Assembly: GCF_003014735.1 (NCBI RefSeq)
Contig: NZ_PYAX01000016.1
Location: 1-64,000 of the forward strand
From: Saccharothrix carnea
Lineage (GTDB): Bacteria; Actinomycetota; Actinomycetes; Mycobacteriales; Pseudonocardiaceae
Direction of reading: 5' to 3'
DNA: 64,000 bases
In this document: piece after piece, positions 28,416 through 44,804 of the stretch
Position numbering within the stretch: position 1 is the stretch's first letter
Layout of the letters: the number at the start of each line of letters is the position of its first letter
Translations under genes and position numbers: made by a program
Notes under the pieces: model-generated
What the model was told of the DNA's origin: nothing
The model's database searches: none
The model's input: only the letters and a program-made list of their open reading frames with translations

Positions 28416-29612
28416 TCAGGGCTTCCGCCGGGTCACGGTGAAGTGGGCCGCGGTGCCGAAGAGGAGGCCCCAGAAGGCCGAGCCGACGCCGAAGAGGGTC
28501 ACGCCGGACGCGGTCACGAGGAAGGCGATGAGGGCGCCTTCGCGATGTGAGGCGAGTGCGGTGGTGTCGGTGATGGCCGCGCCGAGCGAGCCCAGCAGGG
28601 CGACGCCCGCCACGGCGGCGATCAGGGGGCCGGGCAAGGTGAGGAAGACGCTCAGCAGGGTGGCGCCGAAGGTGCCCACGACCAGGTAGAACACGCCGCA
28701 CGCCACGGCCGCCGGGTAGCGGCGCCGGGGATCGGGGTGCGCTTCCGGGCCGGTGCAGATGGCGGCGGTGATGGCGGCCAGGTTGATGGCGTGCGAGCCG
28801 AACGGGGCCAGCAGGGTGGAGGCGATGCCCGTCGTGCCGATGAGGAGGCGGTCGGGGGTGGGGTAGCCGGAGGTCCGGAGCACCCCCAGGCCCGGTGCGT
28901 TCTGGGAGGCCAGCGTCACCACCAGCAGCGGGATGCCGATGCCGATCGCGGACGCCGCGGTGAAATGCGGGGTGGTCCACTCCGGGCGCGCCCACTCCAG
29001 CGAGACGGATGACAGGCGGGTGCCGGTGACCAGCGCCGCCGGCACGCCGAGGGCCAGGGCGCCCAGGACGGCGTACCGGGCGCTGAAGCGCTTGACCACC
29101 AGGTAGCCGACGATGACCGCGCCGACGACCAGCGGTGCGACGCCCAGGTTGCGGAAGGCGTCCACGCCGAAGGCGAACAGGATGCCCGCCAGCACACCGG
29201 ACACGATCGGCGCCGGGATGACGGCCATGAGCCTGCCGAACAGCCCCGAGAAGCCGACCGCCGCCGTCAGGATGCCGGCCAGCACGAACGCGCCAATCGC
29301 GGCACCGTACGGGTGGTCGTCCAAAGTGGACACCAGGAGGGCGGCGCCCGGTGTGGAGAACGCCGTCACGACCGGTGTCCTGGTCCACAGGCTCAGCAGC
29401 ACGCACGTCAACCCGCTGCCGATCGACACCGCCCACACCCACGACGTGGTCTGGCCCGGGGTGAGGTGACCGGCCTTGGCGGCGGCCAGGACGATCACCA
29501 TCGGCCCGGAGTACGACACGACGACCGCGAGCAGACCGGCCACGACCGAGGGCAGCGACACGTCCCGCAGGAAGTGCCGCCGCCCCCGGTCGCTGGAGAC
29601 CTCCGCGCTCAT
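28416..29612 (-). CDS. BenE family (benzoate/H+ symporter type) transporter
   Basis: A 398-residue, very hydrophobic membrane protein with about 11-12 segments. Family features are LPSVVAGLLAVVVSYSGPMVIVLAAAKA near the start, TPVVTAFSTPGAALL, and GSHAINLAAITAAICTGPEAHPD, the conserved loop of BenE proteins. Known members import benzoate by proton symport. Here it is the last gene of the NRPS operon, its ATG overlapping the MFS stop (ATGA), and no benzoate gene adjoins it. It may take up an aromatic building block or move the product; both are guesses. Confidence 0.85.
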   Translation of the reverse strand: MSAEVSSDRGRRHFLRDVSLPSVVAGLLAVVVSYSGPMVIVLAAAKAGHLTPGQTTSWVWAVSIGSGLTCVLLSLWTRTPVVTAFSTPGAALLVSTLDDHPYGAAIGAFVLAGILTAAVGFSGLFGRLMAVIPAPIVSGVLAGILFAFGVDAFRNLGVAPLVVGAVIVGYLVVKRFSARYAVLGALALGVPAALVTGTRLSSVSLEWARPEWTTPHFTAASAIGIGIPLLVVTLASQNAPGLGVLRTSGYPTPDRLLIGTTGIASTLLAPFGSHAINLAAITAAICTGPEAHPDPRRRYPAAVACGVFYLVVGTFGATLLSVFLTLPGPLIAAVAGVALLGSLGAAITDTTALASHREGALIAFLVTASGVTLFGVGSAFWGLLFGTAAHFTVTRRKP

Positions 29613-30910
29613 GCCGCGGTCGGCTCGGCCACCGGCTCCGGCATCTCGCGCAGCCTGCTGACCGGCGAGATGATCAGGCCGACGACCACGAACGCGGACC
29701 CGATCGCCGCCACGACCAGCGCGTTGCGCGCGCCGATGGCGTCGGCGAGCAGGCCCGCGACCAGGCCGCCGAGCGCGCCGCCGCCGAACAGCAACGTGCG
29801 GAACGACGCGGTCATGCGGCCCATCATCGACTGCGGTGTCAACGTCTGCCGCACCGACACGATGATCACGCCCGCGATGCCCAGCCCCAGGTACGTGGTG
29901 AAGAACGAGGCGATGAACATGCCGATCATCACCGGCGTCGGCCCGCCCGCCAGCACGATCAGCAGCGGCCCGAGGAGCAGGCCGCTCTGGGCGATGAAGT
30001 ACGTCGGGCCGATGGGGAACCGCCCGACGACCCGCCGGGACACGATGGCCCCGATCAGGCCGCCGACCGACGCCGTGCCGAAGATCAGGCCCAGCGTCGT
30101 GGAGTCGAGCCCGAGCGTGCGGGTGCCGTAGAGCAGGAACATGGTCCAGGTGGTGATCATCGAGAAGTTGCAGCAGAACCCGATGATGGCCAGCCACCGC
30201 AGCAGCGGCTTGCCGAACACCCAGACCACGCCCTCCTTCAGCTCCCGCAACGCGTGCCGCTCCTCCGGCCTCGGCGGCTTGGGCTCCTCGGTGCGGATCA
30301 GCAGCAGCGAGACGACCGACACCAGGTACGTGCCGGTCTGCACGGCCAGCGCGACGGGCGCGGTCAGCCACGCCACGACGAGGCCCGCGATACCGGGACC
30401 CGCGACGTCCGCCGTGGACGAGCTGATGCCCATCTTGGCGCTCGCCTCGACGTAGTGCTCCGGCTTCTTCACCAGCGTCGGCACGTACGACATCCAGCTG
30501 AGGTCGAACAGCACCGACGCCACGCCGATGAAGCACGCGATGACCAGCAGTGCCGGGATGGACAGCAGGTCCAGCGCGTACAGCAGCGGGATGAAGCCGA
30601 TCAGCACCATCCGGGCGATGTTCGTCCACAGCATCACCTGCCGCCGGCGCACGCGGTCCACCCAGATCCCGAGCAGCAGCGCCAACCCCAGGTAAGGGGC
30701 GAGCTGGACGAACCGCAGCACGCCGACCTGGGTGTCGGTGGCGTTCAGCGAGTGGATGGCGGTCAGCGGCAGGGCCAGGATGGTGACCTGGGTGCCGAGC
30801 AGCGAGACCGTCTCGCCGACCCAGAACTTCAGGAAGTCCCCGTTGTGCCAGAGGCTCTTCTCTTTTTTCCCGGGTTCGGCGGTCTGGTGCTCGGGATCGG
30901 TGATGGACAC
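29609..30910 (-). CDS. MFS exporter (DHA3/EntS-like)
   Basis: A 433-residue major-facilitator protein with about 12 membrane segments. It starts with a soluble basic tail and FWVGETVSLLGTQVTILALPL, has the motif A loop LGIWVDRVRRRQV after segment 2, and the mid-protein loop RTEEPKPPRPEERHALRELKEGV, all typical of DHA3 drug or siderophore exporters (EntS type). It sits 10 bp after the thioesterase and overlaps the BenE gene. The most likely job is export of the NRPS product, which would also give self-protection. Confidence 0.85.
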   Translation of the reverse strand: MSITDPEHQTAEPGKKEKSLWHNGDFLKFWVGETVSLLGTQVTILALPLTAIHSLNATDTQVGVLRFVQLAPYLGLALLLGIWVDRVRRRQVMLWTNIARMVLIGFIPLLYALDLLSIPALLVIACFIGVASVLFDLSWMSYVPTLVKKPEHYVEASAKMGISSSTADVAGPGIAGLVVAWLTAPVALAVQTGTYLVSVVSLLLIRTEEPKPPRPEERHALRELKEGVVWVFGKPLLRWLAIIGFCCNFSMITTWTMFLLYGTRTLGLDSTTLGLIFGTASVGGLIGAIVSRRVVGRFPIGPTYFIAQSGLLLGPLLIVLAGGPTPVMIGMFIASFFTTYLGLGIAGVIIVSVRQTLTPQSMMGRMTASFRTLLFGGGALGGLVAGLLADAIGARNALVVAAIGSAFVVVGLIISPVSRLREMPEPVAEPTAA

Positions 30911-30920
30911 GGACCTGTTC

Positions 30921-43300: not shown

Positions 43301-43689
43301 TGCCGATCCTCGCCGCGTTGGATGGCGTCGATGTCCGCGCCGATCAGCTCCACGTCGTACTTCTCCAGCACCCCGCGTTCGTGCAGGGCGATGGCGGTGT
43401 TCAGCGCGGTCTGGCCGCCCAGCGTGGCCAGGATCGCGTCCGGCCGTTCGGCGGCGATGACCTTCTCCACGAACTCCGGGGTGATCGGCTCGACGTAGGT
43501 GGCGTCGGCGAACTCCGGGTCGGTCATGATCGTCGCGGGGTTGGAGTTGACCAGCGAGACCCGCAGCCCCTCCTCCCGCAACACCCGACACGCCTGGGTG
43601 CCGGAGTAGTCGAACTCGCAGGCCTGGCCGATGACGATCGGACCCGAGCCGATCACCAGCACGTGCTTGAGATCAGTCCTCTTCGGCAT
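40378..43689 (-). CDS. carB: Carbamoyl-phosphate synthase large subunit
   Basis: A 1,103-residue CarB with the expected tandem design: an N-terminal carboxyphosphate-forming ATP-grasp half ([44 protein letters not shown]), an oligomerisation region, and a carbamate-phosphorylating half ([34 protein letters not shown]). With CarA it makes carbamoyl phosphate from bicarbonate, glutamine nitrogen and two ATP. The C-terminal MGS-like allosteric domain is divergent: where a stretch of the type NTPxG...DGYxIRRAA is expected, it reads [18 protein letters not shown], and a tail of about 40 residues is added after LQGVH. It shares one base with carA (TGATG). No other pyrimidine genes flank it. Confidence 0.95.
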
Positions 43690-44804
43690 CAGCGGCCCTC
43701 GCCCATCATCGTCACGAACTCGTCGAACAGGGCTGCGGCGTCATGCGGACCCGCCGCCGCCTCCGGGTGGTACTGCACGCTGAACGCCGGCACGTCCAAG
43801 GCCCGGACACCTTCGACCGTGCCGTCGTTGGGGCAGTAGTGGCTCAGCAGCACACGGCCGAAATCGGAGCCGAACTCCTCACCCGGCTCACCCTCCAACG
43901 CGAACCCGTGGTTCTGCGAGGTGATCGCCACCTTGCCCGTGGCCACGTCGATCACCGGGATGTTGATGCCACGATGCCCGTAACGCATCTTGTAGGTGTC
44001 ACGACCCAACGCACGACCCAGGATCTGATTACCGAAACAGATCCCGAACAACGGGATCCGCCGATCCAACACACCCCGCGTCAACTCCACCGCGTGCGCC
44101 TGCGTGGCCGGATCACCCGGCCCGTTGGACAGGAACACCCCATCCGGCTTCACCGCCACCAAGTCCTCGACCGCGGAGGTCAGCGGTAGGACGTGCACCT
44201 CGATACCGCGCGCCGCCATCATCCGCGGCGTGTTCGACTTGATACCCAAGTCCAGCGCGGCGACGGTGAAGCGGCGCTCACCCACGGCCTCGACCACGTA
44301 GGGCTCAGCGGTGGTCACGTCACCGGCCAGGTCGGCACCCTTCATCTGCGGCGCGGACCGGACCCGTTCCAGCATCTCCTCGGCGCTGCCCAGCTCGTCC
44401 CCCGAGAACACACCCGCTCGCATCGCACCCTGCTCGCGCAGGTGCCGCGTCAACATCCGCGTGTCGATACCCGAGACACCGACGATCCCCTGCCGGACCA
44501 ACTCGTCATCCAGGCTCCGGGTCGAGCGCCAGTTCGACGGCACGCGGGCCGGGTCACGCACGACATACCCGGCCACCCAGATACGGCTCGACTCGTCGTC
44601 CTCGTCGTTCCAGCCGGTGTTGCCGATCTGCGGCGCCGTCTGCACCACGATCTGACGGTGATACGACGGATCGGTCAGCGTCTCCTGATACCCGGTCATC
44701 CCGGTGGAGAACACCACCTCACCCAAACTCGCACCCACCGCGCCGTAGGCCTCACCACGGAACACACGACCGTCTTCCAGCACCAATGCCGCGTTAATCG
44801 GCAC
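43689..44804 (-). CDS. carA: Carbamoyl-phosphate synthase small subunit (glutamine amidotransferase)
   Basis: A 371-residue CarA that releases ammonia from glutamine and channels it to CarB. The N-terminal CPSase_sm domain begins [19 protein letters not shown] and has [19 protein letters not shown]. The class I amidotransferase domain has the oxyanion loop SNGPGDP, the nucleophile Cys in [14 protein letters not shown], and the His/Glu pair in VQYHPEA. GTG at 44804 is the start, behind GGGGGAG; the open frame further upstream is arginine-rich and unlikely to be translated. It heads the biosynthetic operon and is divergent from metB across an 835-bp spacer. Confidence 0.95.

Follow-up and report, generated by a model that had tools for sequence, protein, structure and literature searches.

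Saccharothrix carnea is a soil actinomycete, and the window analyzed here, a 64,000-nucleotide stretch of its DNA, contains a small gene cluster. Its ten genes all lie on the minus strand, from approximately 44,804 down to 28,416, and a metB gene is divergently oriented beside carA. The features and the evidence for them are as follows:

43689..44804, minus strand: carA paralogue, glutaminase subunit of carbamoyl-phosphate synthase, GTG start (TIGR01368; Cys and His motifs GICFG and HPEAA present)
40834..43689, minus strand: carB paralogue, catalytic body, amino acids 1-952 (tree, identical-run test, identity to housekeeping copy)
40378..40833, minus strand: carB degenerate C-terminal allosteric (MGS) domain, amino acids 953-1103, plus stop codon (identity, residue alignment)
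39311..40330, minus strand: sbnA-like PLP synthase, start uncertain, GTG at 40330 chosen (TIGR03945)
38320..39324, minus strand: sbnB-like dehydrogenase (TIGR03944, above cut-off)
36674..38326, minus strand: FAD/NADPH N-hydroxylase-type enzyme, NAD_binding_9, CreE relative (PF13454; PDB 8cp2)
35015..36583, minus strand: NodU/CmcH-type carbamoyltransferase (PF16861, PF02543; NovN, GdmN, TobZ)
31702..34869, minus strand: one-module NRPS, C-A-PCP (PF00668, PF00501, PF13193, PF00550)
30921..31709, minus strand: stand-alone thioesterase (PF00975; GWSLG and HHS motifs)
29609..30910, minus strand: MFS transporter, probably an exporter (PF07690)
28416..29612, minus strand: BenE-family transporter (TIGR00843, 355 bits against a cut-off of 203)
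45643..46788, plus strand: second metB linked to the cluster, coding for cystathionine gamma-synthase and oriented divergently to carA (PRK07811, 673 bits against a cut-off of 513)

The order of the reading frames, their spacings, and the profile matches confirmed the preliminary description of ten genes running in one direction with overlaps or short gaps. The spacings in nucleotides (negative values are overlaps) are -1 for carA/carB, 47 for carB/sbnA, -14 for sbnA/sbnB, -7 for sbnB/FAD, 90 for FAD/NodU, 145 for NodU/NRPS, -8 for NRPS/thioesterase, 10 for thioesterase/MFS, and -4 for MFS/BenE. The start of sbnA was set at 40,330 because alignments to relatives begin there, and the spacings were computed with that start.

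Both subunits of the cluster carbamoyl-phosphate synthase score above the curated cut-offs of their families (CarA, TIGR01368, 444 against 307 bits; CarB, TIGR01369, 1370 against 1027 bits). A second carA is present in the same genome (C10:2494), and a second carB is divided between the ends of contigs C10 and C22; a pyrC-like frame precedes this second pair, and pyrF-, gmk-, and coaBC-like frames, like the first named by eye, follow it. The check for another carAB in the pyr operon, which had been suggested earlier, thus found one, and the cluster carAB are therefore not the housekeeping genes. The cluster CarA shares 97.3% amino acid identity with its housekeeping counterpart.

A search of other genomes for the ten-gene order, also suggested earlier, recovered the identical set and order in G313 and in Actinosynnema pretiosum DSM 44132 (L013), both from the same genus, and eight of the ten genes in Actinoalloteichus caeruleus DSM 43889 (L014, identical to G219), where carA and benE are missing. 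Because gene set and order recur in this manner, the grouping is not due to chance. Two carA genes were counted in G000, G307, and G313 (cluster-bearing, same genus) and one each in A. caeruleus (also cluster-bearing), G083, G069, and G192; carB is present twice in the four cluster-bearing genomes and once in G083, G069, and G192. The sole carA of A. caeruleus lies outside the cluster, which could be taken to mean that a carAB duplicate merely landed next to an unrelated cluster. We consider such a coincidence highly improbable, since carA, carB, and sbnA are co-directional in three genomes and carB and sbnA in the fourth, the four cluster carB genes share an altered domain that forms one clade, and G083, G069, and G192 have no extra carA or carB. 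The absence of cluster carA from A. caeruleus instead identifies carB as the constant part and indicates that this organism can do without a complete synthase of its own for the cluster, a point against the dedicated-supply reading.

All four cluster copies of CarB have a degenerate C-terminal UMP/IMP domain, and in S. carnea it is 29.7% identical at the amino acid level to the domain of the housekeeping copy. Residues K954, T974, K993, and N1015 (E. coli numbering) are kept in seven of seven housekeeping CarB proteins and in none of the four cluster proteins, while T977 is kept in seven of seven and one of four, respectively; the nucleotide-effector (UMP/IMP) site thus appears to be lost from the cluster proteins. 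According to PMC6245113, both inhibition by UMP and its binding depend crucially on T977 and K993. As residues needed for UMP inhibition have been lost, the cluster synthase is predicted to be free of pyrimidine (UMP) feedback. The same source gives S948F as a change that abolishes UMP control in E. coli; S948 is still a serine in three of the four cluster copies, which counts against the loss of control. Constraint on the degenerate domain is weak, which also counts against the proposed scheme: dN/dS was 0.36 for the closest pair and 0.51, 0.66, and 0.90 for three others, although two housekeeping pairs likewise gave 0.29 and 0.35 in this domain. The dedicated carbamoyl phosphate supply that the preliminary description proposed is well supported by the second carAB together with the lost effector residues. 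With its degenerate nucleotide-binding domain, the cluster-owned synthase would provide carbamoyl phosphate that UMP should not shut off. This makes the locus a testable case of evolutionary deregulation of carbamoyl-phosphate synthase, and its enzyme a natural candidate for UMP insensitivity. A carB whose allosteric domain has degenerated may serve as a sequence signature for finding carbamoyl-dependent natural products.

The catalytic body of CarB has a different history from this domain. Over the 912 codons sequenced in both copies, the cluster and housekeeping bodies of S. carnea are 97.9% identical in amino acids and 92.8% in nucleotides, and those of G313 are 99.6% identical in amino acids. 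The longest identical run in the body was 1,421 nucleotides in G313 (the highest of 1,000 codon shuffles gave 701), 200 in G000 (shuffle maximum 143), and 212 in G307 (120); G219 gave no conversion signal (38 against a maximum of 70), and none of four cross-genome control pairs exceeded its own shuffles in run length. The cluster copies form one clade (100/100) in the tree of the C-terminal domain. They do not in the tree of the body, in which four changes are forced: the two G313 copies are sisters (100/100), no resolution is obtained for the two G000 copies, and the cluster copy of G307 falls outside the pair formed by the G307 and G083 housekeeping copies, with which it shares 91.3% and 91.1% identity. 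Within the genus, the body of each of the three cluster CarB proteins is nearer to the housekeeping protein of its own genome than to the CarB of any other cluster. These patterns suggest gene conversion with the housekeeping copy that ends at the regulatory domain, clear only in G313. Conversion with the housekeeping carAB would keep the catalytic body sound and leave the regulatory domain outside the converted tract.

The divergent metB adjoins carA in all four cluster genomes, as an extra copy in each, so the unit extends past carA. At a threshold of at least 70% identity, metB is found twice in each cluster genome and once in each of four other genomes chosen; three cluster copies group together in a single clade (98/97), and nine positions are fixed between these and eight housekeeping copies. 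The linked metB, the effector-residue loss, the gene conversion, and the lack of cluster carA in A. caeruleus all go beyond the preliminary description.

Copies of primary-metabolism genes are common in biosynthetic clusters, and it is often difficult to decide whether they serve supply or resistance. The product might attack carbamoyl-phosphate synthase and/or cystathionine gamma-synthase, for example as a pyrimidine-like false feedback inhibitor at the UMP site, with the extra carAB and metB as resistant copies. Two primary-metabolism enzymes with cluster-linked second copies, the separate clade of three cluster metB genes, and the fact that the nucleotide-binding domain is the only strongly differing part of CarB all fit this explanation, which is also compatible with a supply role. 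We nevertheless judge it unlikely, as a catalytic body nearly identical to the housekeeping one (as in G313) would give no protection against an active-site inhibitor, and supply is the simpler reading in a cluster that includes a carbamoyl-phosphate consumer. Catalysis is conserved and even re-copied while only nucleotide control is lost, so the sequence points to supply.

SbnA and SbnB form L-2,3-diaminopropionate (Dap) from O-phosphoserine and glutamate. The adjacent cluster genes, which overlap by 14 nucleotides, belong to these families by the curated cut-offs (SbnA, TIGR03945, 386 against 350 bits; SbnB, TIGR03944, 376 against 327 bits), the best solved relative of the sbnA product being S. 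aureus SbnA (5d87, E 2.8e-62), and they would make Dap. The product of the following gene is homologous over most of its length to the CreE/FzmM L-aspartate N-hydroxylases (PDB 8cp2, E 6.4e-52, 499 residues aligned at 37.7% identity) and keeps their arginine-rich catalytic core. According to PMC10404684, CreE contacts aspartate through R13, R276, N413, R416, and R577. In the cluster enzyme R13, N62, R266, R409, R412, and R416 are kept and the alignment at R276 is uncertain; unlike in CreE/FzmM, N413 is replaced by E and R577 by S in all four clusters, the stacking W51 is replaced by H, and no CreD-type lyase match occurs among the ten proteins. Homology thus marks the FAD enzyme as related to N-hydroxylases of the CreE type, with altered aspartate contacts, and it may oxidize a Dap nitrogen to yield N-hydroxy-Dap, free or on the PCP.

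The NodU protein has the Kae1-like N domain and YrdC-like C domain (PF02543, 64 bits; PF16861, 187 bits), with six signature motifs kept in all four clusters. The acceptor expected for the CmcH/NodU family is a hydroxyl oxygen. With carbamoyl phosphate as donor and carbamoyl-AMP as intermediate, the enzyme would carbamoylate the N-OH, or the nitrogen to give an N-hydroxyurea. Because the FAD enzyme is related to N-hydroxylases and Pfam shows no OTC-type enzyme among the ten proteins, the acceptor is probably N-hydroxylated Dap rather than a plain amine. Elsewhere, a 68%-identical NodU has a YqcI/YcgG gene, of the haem N-oxygenase family, approximately 1.2 kb away, and counts for an N-oxidized acceptor; an 81%-identical NodU in a TauD/DDAH/ATP-grasp context with no obvious N-oxygenase counts against it.

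A reduced cassette, sbnA-sbnB-FAD-CGS-like-benE, was found in G531 and G301. Four of the ten gene families are shared with the cluster and the CGS-like gene is a counterpart of metB, but its product shares 44-46% identity with that of metB in the window and falls below the CGS cut-off; no match to carA, carB, NodU, NRPS, thioesterase, or the cluster MFS (E <= 1e-5) was found in 19 kb of each genome. Since sbnA-sbnB-FAD is a tight unit that recurs without a NodU match, N-oxidation is placed straight after Dap. This argues against a plain ureido route in which beta-ureidoalanine arises from carbamoylation of the beta-amine by NodU, with the flavoenzyme active at a later step or elsewhere. Precedent for that route exists: Dap and carbamoyl phosphate give beta-ureidoalanine in viomycin, capreomycin, and zwittermicin (PMC6022934), and the NodU-like StdF carbamoylates a lysine amine (preprint PMC13174530), so that ureido-Dap could still be formed. 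However, the beta-ureidoalanine pathways known from the former source use an ornithine-transcarbamylase-type enzyme, and no OTC/ATC family was found by Pfam among the ten proteins; we regard the plain route as improbable. Of the carbamoylated or ureido Dap product expected earlier, the Dap and carbamoyltransferase parts hold through SbnAB and NodU/CmcH, and the ureido product is only partly supported, given the N-hydroxylase relative and the lack of an OTC-type enzyme.

The NRPS consists of C-A-PCP only, with HHIVTDG and GGNSL motifs, and the A-domain pocket segments are identical in all four clusters except for one flanking K/R. Read by hand, the pocket is D-M-G-G-V-G-L-I-G-K; it has no acidic residue besides D235, which suggests a substrate with a neutral side chain. 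Together with the thioesterase, this protein may activate the unit and set it free, possibly in ring form.

Dap is loaded on a carrier protein in the L-alanosine pathway, which we count as a likeness to the cluster. The aln/ala cluster of Streptomyces alanosinicus also shares the Dap precursor and a proposed N-hydroxylation (review PMC11705231). There, however, the proposed hydroxylase is AlnG, which resembles acyl-CoA dehydrogenases, and it is accompanied by the cupin AlnA and a nitrite or NO supply; the cluster described here instead has a flavoenzyme of the CreE type, together with CarAB and a NodU/CmcH enzyme. Among the alanosine markers sought (cupin/AraC AlnA, AlnG-type hydroxylase, CreD/CreE), only the CreE relative was detected; none of the ten proteins belongs to a cupin, acyl-CoA dehydrogenase, or lyase family. 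Resemblance to the beta-ureidoalanine modules lies in Dap and carbamoyl transfer (PMC6022934) and, for capreomycin, in CmnB among the SbnA matches; the NodU/CmcH type, the N-hydroxylase relative, and the synthase of its own set this cluster apart.

Literature searches turned up neither a cluster with this gene set nor a combination of N-hydroxylation and carbamoylation of Dap, which this pathway would join. The product is probably a nitrogen-oxidized, carbamoylated amino acid, and the cluster would make a small antimetabolite-like or metal-binding compound. Judged from homology and gene order, the complete scheme of Dap formation, N-oxidation, carbamoylation, and NRPS release, served by a cluster-owned UMP-insensitive synthase with a conversion-kept body, seems reasonably probable. 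A doubtful extension is that conversion renews the CarB body but halts where the allosteric domain begins, so that feedback never returns; the product, an N-carbamoyloxy or N-hydroxyureido Dap and possibly a ring, would represent a new class, acting as a cysteine-like antimetabolite of cystathionine gamma-synthase, with the linked metB as the resistant copy. In the reduced cassettes, an "aza-cystathionine" may instead be formed, with the CGS-like enzyme coupling a homoserine unit and N-hydroxy-Dap, which is an aza-cysteine.

A staphyloferrin B-type siderophore was rejected, as no NIS (IucA/IucC) synthetases are among the ten proteins. The MFS and BenE proteins would transport the product. The BenE gene is present in three of the four clusters and in both reduced cassettes, and PRK10489 (EntS) is among the weaker MFS matches, at 96 bits against a cut-off of 324.

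The ten genes of the cluster lie together on the minus strand, from the GTG start of carA at 44,804 to the stop codon of benE at 28,416, and both the families and their order (carA, carB, sbnA, sbnB, FAD enzyme, NodU-type carbamoyltransferase, NRPS, thioesterase, MFS, benE) agree with the preliminary description. Adjacent genes overlap by up to 14 nt or are separated by up to 145 nt, and the GC content over 28-44 kb is 68-73%, compared with 67-75% in the remaining window. All 24 motif patterns for the NRPS, thioesterase, carbamoyltransferase, CarA, SbnA, SbnB and FAD enzyme were found. 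A promoter scan of 44,700-45,800 returned one sigma-70-like site (45,068-45,040, minus strand; 0.2 expected), which was not counted as evidence, and no terminator-like sites were found in the same interval. Rfam models at the gathering level gave no matches in the whole window.

A NodU query against 84,980 species genomes, a search that returns close relatives only and may have omitted the window's own record, yielded four loci, two of which carry the cluster. Actinosynnema pretiosum DSM 44132 (L013) has all ten genes in identical order, and Actinoalloteichus caeruleus DSM 43889 (L014) has eight of the ten, without carA and without benE; benE was not found in the 32 kb covered there. Because the carB tails of these loci are identical to those of genomes G307 and G219, respectively, they were treated as the same organisms. 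All ten genes are also present in a further genome, G313. The 24 patterns were complete in every cluster except that of A. caeruleus, where four were missed: two in carA (the gene being absent), one in sbnA, in which AGSIKL replaces the expected GGSIK, and one at the NADPH site of the FAD enzyme. The FAD gene was found at an identity of at least 77% in 3 of 25 genus genomes (the window's own genome G000, G313 and G307), the next best being 46%. SbnA matched at E <= 1e-75 in 12 of the 25 and reached at least 85% in only three, so that SbnA by itself is a non-specific marker of the cluster.

A second copy in G000 rules out that the cluster carAB are the housekeeping genes. The second carA is located at C10:2494-2868, and the second carB is broken by the ends of contigs C10 and C22, with a pyrC-like frame before it and pyrF-, gmk- and coaBC-like frames after it (gene names here and elsewhere outside the cluster were assigned by eye). 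The breaks within this carB (C10:1-1771 and C22:1-1410) would be expected if a near-identical carB pair had confused the assembly. In a set of genomes that was chosen rather than random, two copies of carA were counted in G000, G307 and G313 and one in A. caeruleus and in the comparison genomes G083, G069 and G192; carB was present twice in G000, G307, G313 and A. caeruleus and once in those three comparison genomes. As carB is duplicated in four of four cluster genomes and carA in three, carB is the constant element of the cluster. The CarB of the A. caeruleus cluster would have to use the housekeeping CarA jointly. The earlier proposal of a dedicated carbamoyl phosphate supply is well supported, and it can now be put more specifically.

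The best family alignments of the cluster CarB stop at residue 1,004-1,018 of 1,103, within the C-terminal allosteric domain (residues 953-1103). E. coli CarB, seven housekeeping copies and the four cluster copies were aligned. K954, T974, K993 and N1015 are present in all seven housekeeping copies and in none of the four cluster copies, and T977 is present in seven of seven versus one of four. We take K954, T974 and N1015 to be effector contacts. S948 is retained in three cluster copies and T1016 in all four, and the TT pair at the ornithine site, T1042, is preserved in the alignment. The cluster enzyme is predicted from these residues not to be shut off by UMP, and it may possibly still be able to meet ornithine. 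For the domain, dN/dS between cluster copies was 0.36 (G000-G313), 0.66 and 0.90 (pairs with G307) and 0.51 (G000-G219), compared with 0.07-0.18 for the catalytic body (residues 1-952) of those pairs. Two housekeeping pairs gave domain values of 0.29 and 0.35, and the closest cluster pair is therefore not clearly more relaxed. Constraint on the cluster domain is weak by these ratios, and the domain looks like a regulatory one in decay whose reading frame has stayed intact.

Within genomes, the cluster and housekeeping CarB bodies share 97.9% of amino acids in G000 (from 912 codons, the split housekeeping gene missing about 40), 99.6% in G313 and 91.3% in G307. Between genomes, cluster bodies share 95.6% (G000-G313), 88.4% (G000-G307) and 87.5% (G313-G307), each below the within-genome values of the two genomes concerned. 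For the domain, the within-genome pairs of these genomes share 29.6-29.7%, compared with 76.2% for the G000 and G313 cluster copies. In A. caeruleus the body pair, at 82.1%, is less similar than its cluster copy is to other cluster copies (84.3-85.8%). The longest identical nucleotide run in the body was 1,421 in G313, 200 in G000, 212 in G307 and 38 in A. caeruleus, against maxima of 701, 143, 120 and 70 in 1,000 codon shuffles, which ignore rate differences along the gene; all four control pairs (G000-G313 cluster; G000-G313, G000-G307 and G307-G083 housekeeping) fell below their shuffle maxima. The domain tree unites the cluster copies in a single clade at 100/100, with G307 and G219 flagged as long branches, whereas the body tree forces the cluster label through four changes. 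The G313 copies are sisters in the body tree (100/100), the G000 pair is not resolved, and the cluster copy of G307 falls immediately outside the housekeeping pair of G307 and G083, which would make conversion in G307 older or piecemeal. In G313, identity falls from 100% to 51% across adjacent 60-codon windows at the domain border. Independent recapture of the body would need one identical junction several times over. The simplest account of these patterns is repeated gene conversion of carAB, with a tract that does not enter the diverged domain. The cluster and housekeeping carA products share 97.3% in G000, 96.4% in G313 and 81.4% in G307 (G069, whose carA was missed by the motif script, was left out), a pattern like that of carB in G000 and G313 and unlike it in G307.

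The cluster FAD enzyme is an NAD_binding_9 protein whose sole strong solved relative is 8cp2, a CreE-type enzyme described as an L-aspartate N-hydroxylase in an excerpt of PMC10404684. N62, R266, R409, R412 and R416 are common to both, whereas N413, R577 and W51 of 8cp2 are replaced by E, S and H in all four clusters. We read the enzyme as an amine N-hydroxylase that has lost the ability to bind aspartate; a diamino substrate would be well matched by an acidic residue at position 413. An aspartate N-hydroxylase with nitrite release was rejected, as the aspartate contacts are altered and no lyase was matched in the ten proteins; a staphyloferrin-type siderophore was rejected because no NIS synthetase was matched in them. 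No PHROGs family matched the flavoenzyme. The type is rare: at E <= 1e-80 it was found in 2 of 394 class genomes, the window's own counted, and for the form of the reduced cassette at E <= 1e-70 the only one of 396 phylum genomes to match was that of the window, in a draw without G531. Two looser relatives, one in G531, from a different family, and one in G301, from the window's genus, carry histidine at 51 and aspartate at 413; G531 has S at 577, a site not covered in G301. Each belongs to a reduced cassette:

L085:6336-12415, G531: sbnA, sbnB, FAD enzyme, CGS-like gene (cystathionine gamma-synthase), benE
L086:7094-13182, G301: the same five-gene cassette

These cassettes link L-2,3-diaminopropionate (Dap) synthesis, N-oxidation and BenE independently of the window. 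A single open frame of 947 aa contains both the FAD match and the CGS-like match of G301.

The carbamoyltransferase resembles NovN, GdmN and TobZ, and six tested motifs are kept in all four clusters. Relatives at an identity of at least 68% occur in 7 of 298 order genomes, the window's own counted (G000, G219, G097, G069, G055, G090 and G192). In G192 (L060:8267-13465), the neighbourhood of a 68% relative includes radical SAM, deaminase and YqcI/YcgG genes, the last presumably haem N-oxygenases, with NRPS-like matches downstream. In G069 (L057) and Kibdelosporangium banguiense (L015), a relative of about 81% lies near a TauD oxygenase, a DDAH-like hydrolase, a Glu_synthase-type FMN enzyme, an AsnRS-like enzyme and ATP-grasp proteins of the L-amino-acid-ligase kind, which may represent another type of cluster. 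Pfam scans of ten neighbouring proteins in the L015/L057 and L060 contexts did not lead to a recognised product.

SbnA- and SbnB-type enzymes together convert O-phosphoserine and glutamate to Dap. The product had been proposed to be a carbamoylated or ureido Dap; the family memberships and residue states behind this were observed, and the product class itself is hypothetical. Each reaction of the pathway is predicted from those memberships and states. SbnA and SbnB would make Dap, which would then be N-hydroxylated, and NodU would carbamoylate the N-OH or the N with carbamoyl phosphate from CarAB. The A domain would activate the unit; D235 is the sole acidic residue of its pocket (code read by hand, at what we take to be the GrsA positions). 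The thioesterase would release the product, perhaps closing a ring, before export.

The divergent CGS gene beside carA, metB, is an extra copy: in chosen, not random, genomes, two copies at an identity of at least 70% were found in G000, G307, G313 and G219 and one in G083, G150, G301 and G531. In the metB tree, three of the cluster copies group together at 98/97, with nine fixed differences from eight housekeeping copies; the G313 gene was excluded from this tree for its long poly-G run. That run, of about 140 G (L065 ~1,162-1,303; C1 ~5,231,162-5,231,303), splits the cluster copy of G313 and is probably an assembly artefact. The cluster metB may encode a resistant target or a pathway participant, and the CGS-like gene of the reduced cassettes keeps both readings alive.

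The recruitment of primary enzymes into biosynthetic clusters is a known phenomenon. An excerpt of PMC6631532 on A. pretiosum ATCC 31565 gives more than 20 antiSMASH clusters, and a description of this cluster was not found in that excerpt. Open-access literature searches aimed at the gene set or its chemistry listed no title or abstract describing this set. Divergence confined to a regulatory domain with conversion of the body did not appear in these searches either.

Elsewhere in the window, a LacI-type regulator followed by apparent sugar hydrolase and ABC transporter genes (47880-54420, by eye) is probably an ordinary sugar-use locus. A long ORF of 1,332 aa (57492-61490) carries an LQRHVGNRAV-type motif like that of DUF4157 proteins, which are associated with contractile injection systems.
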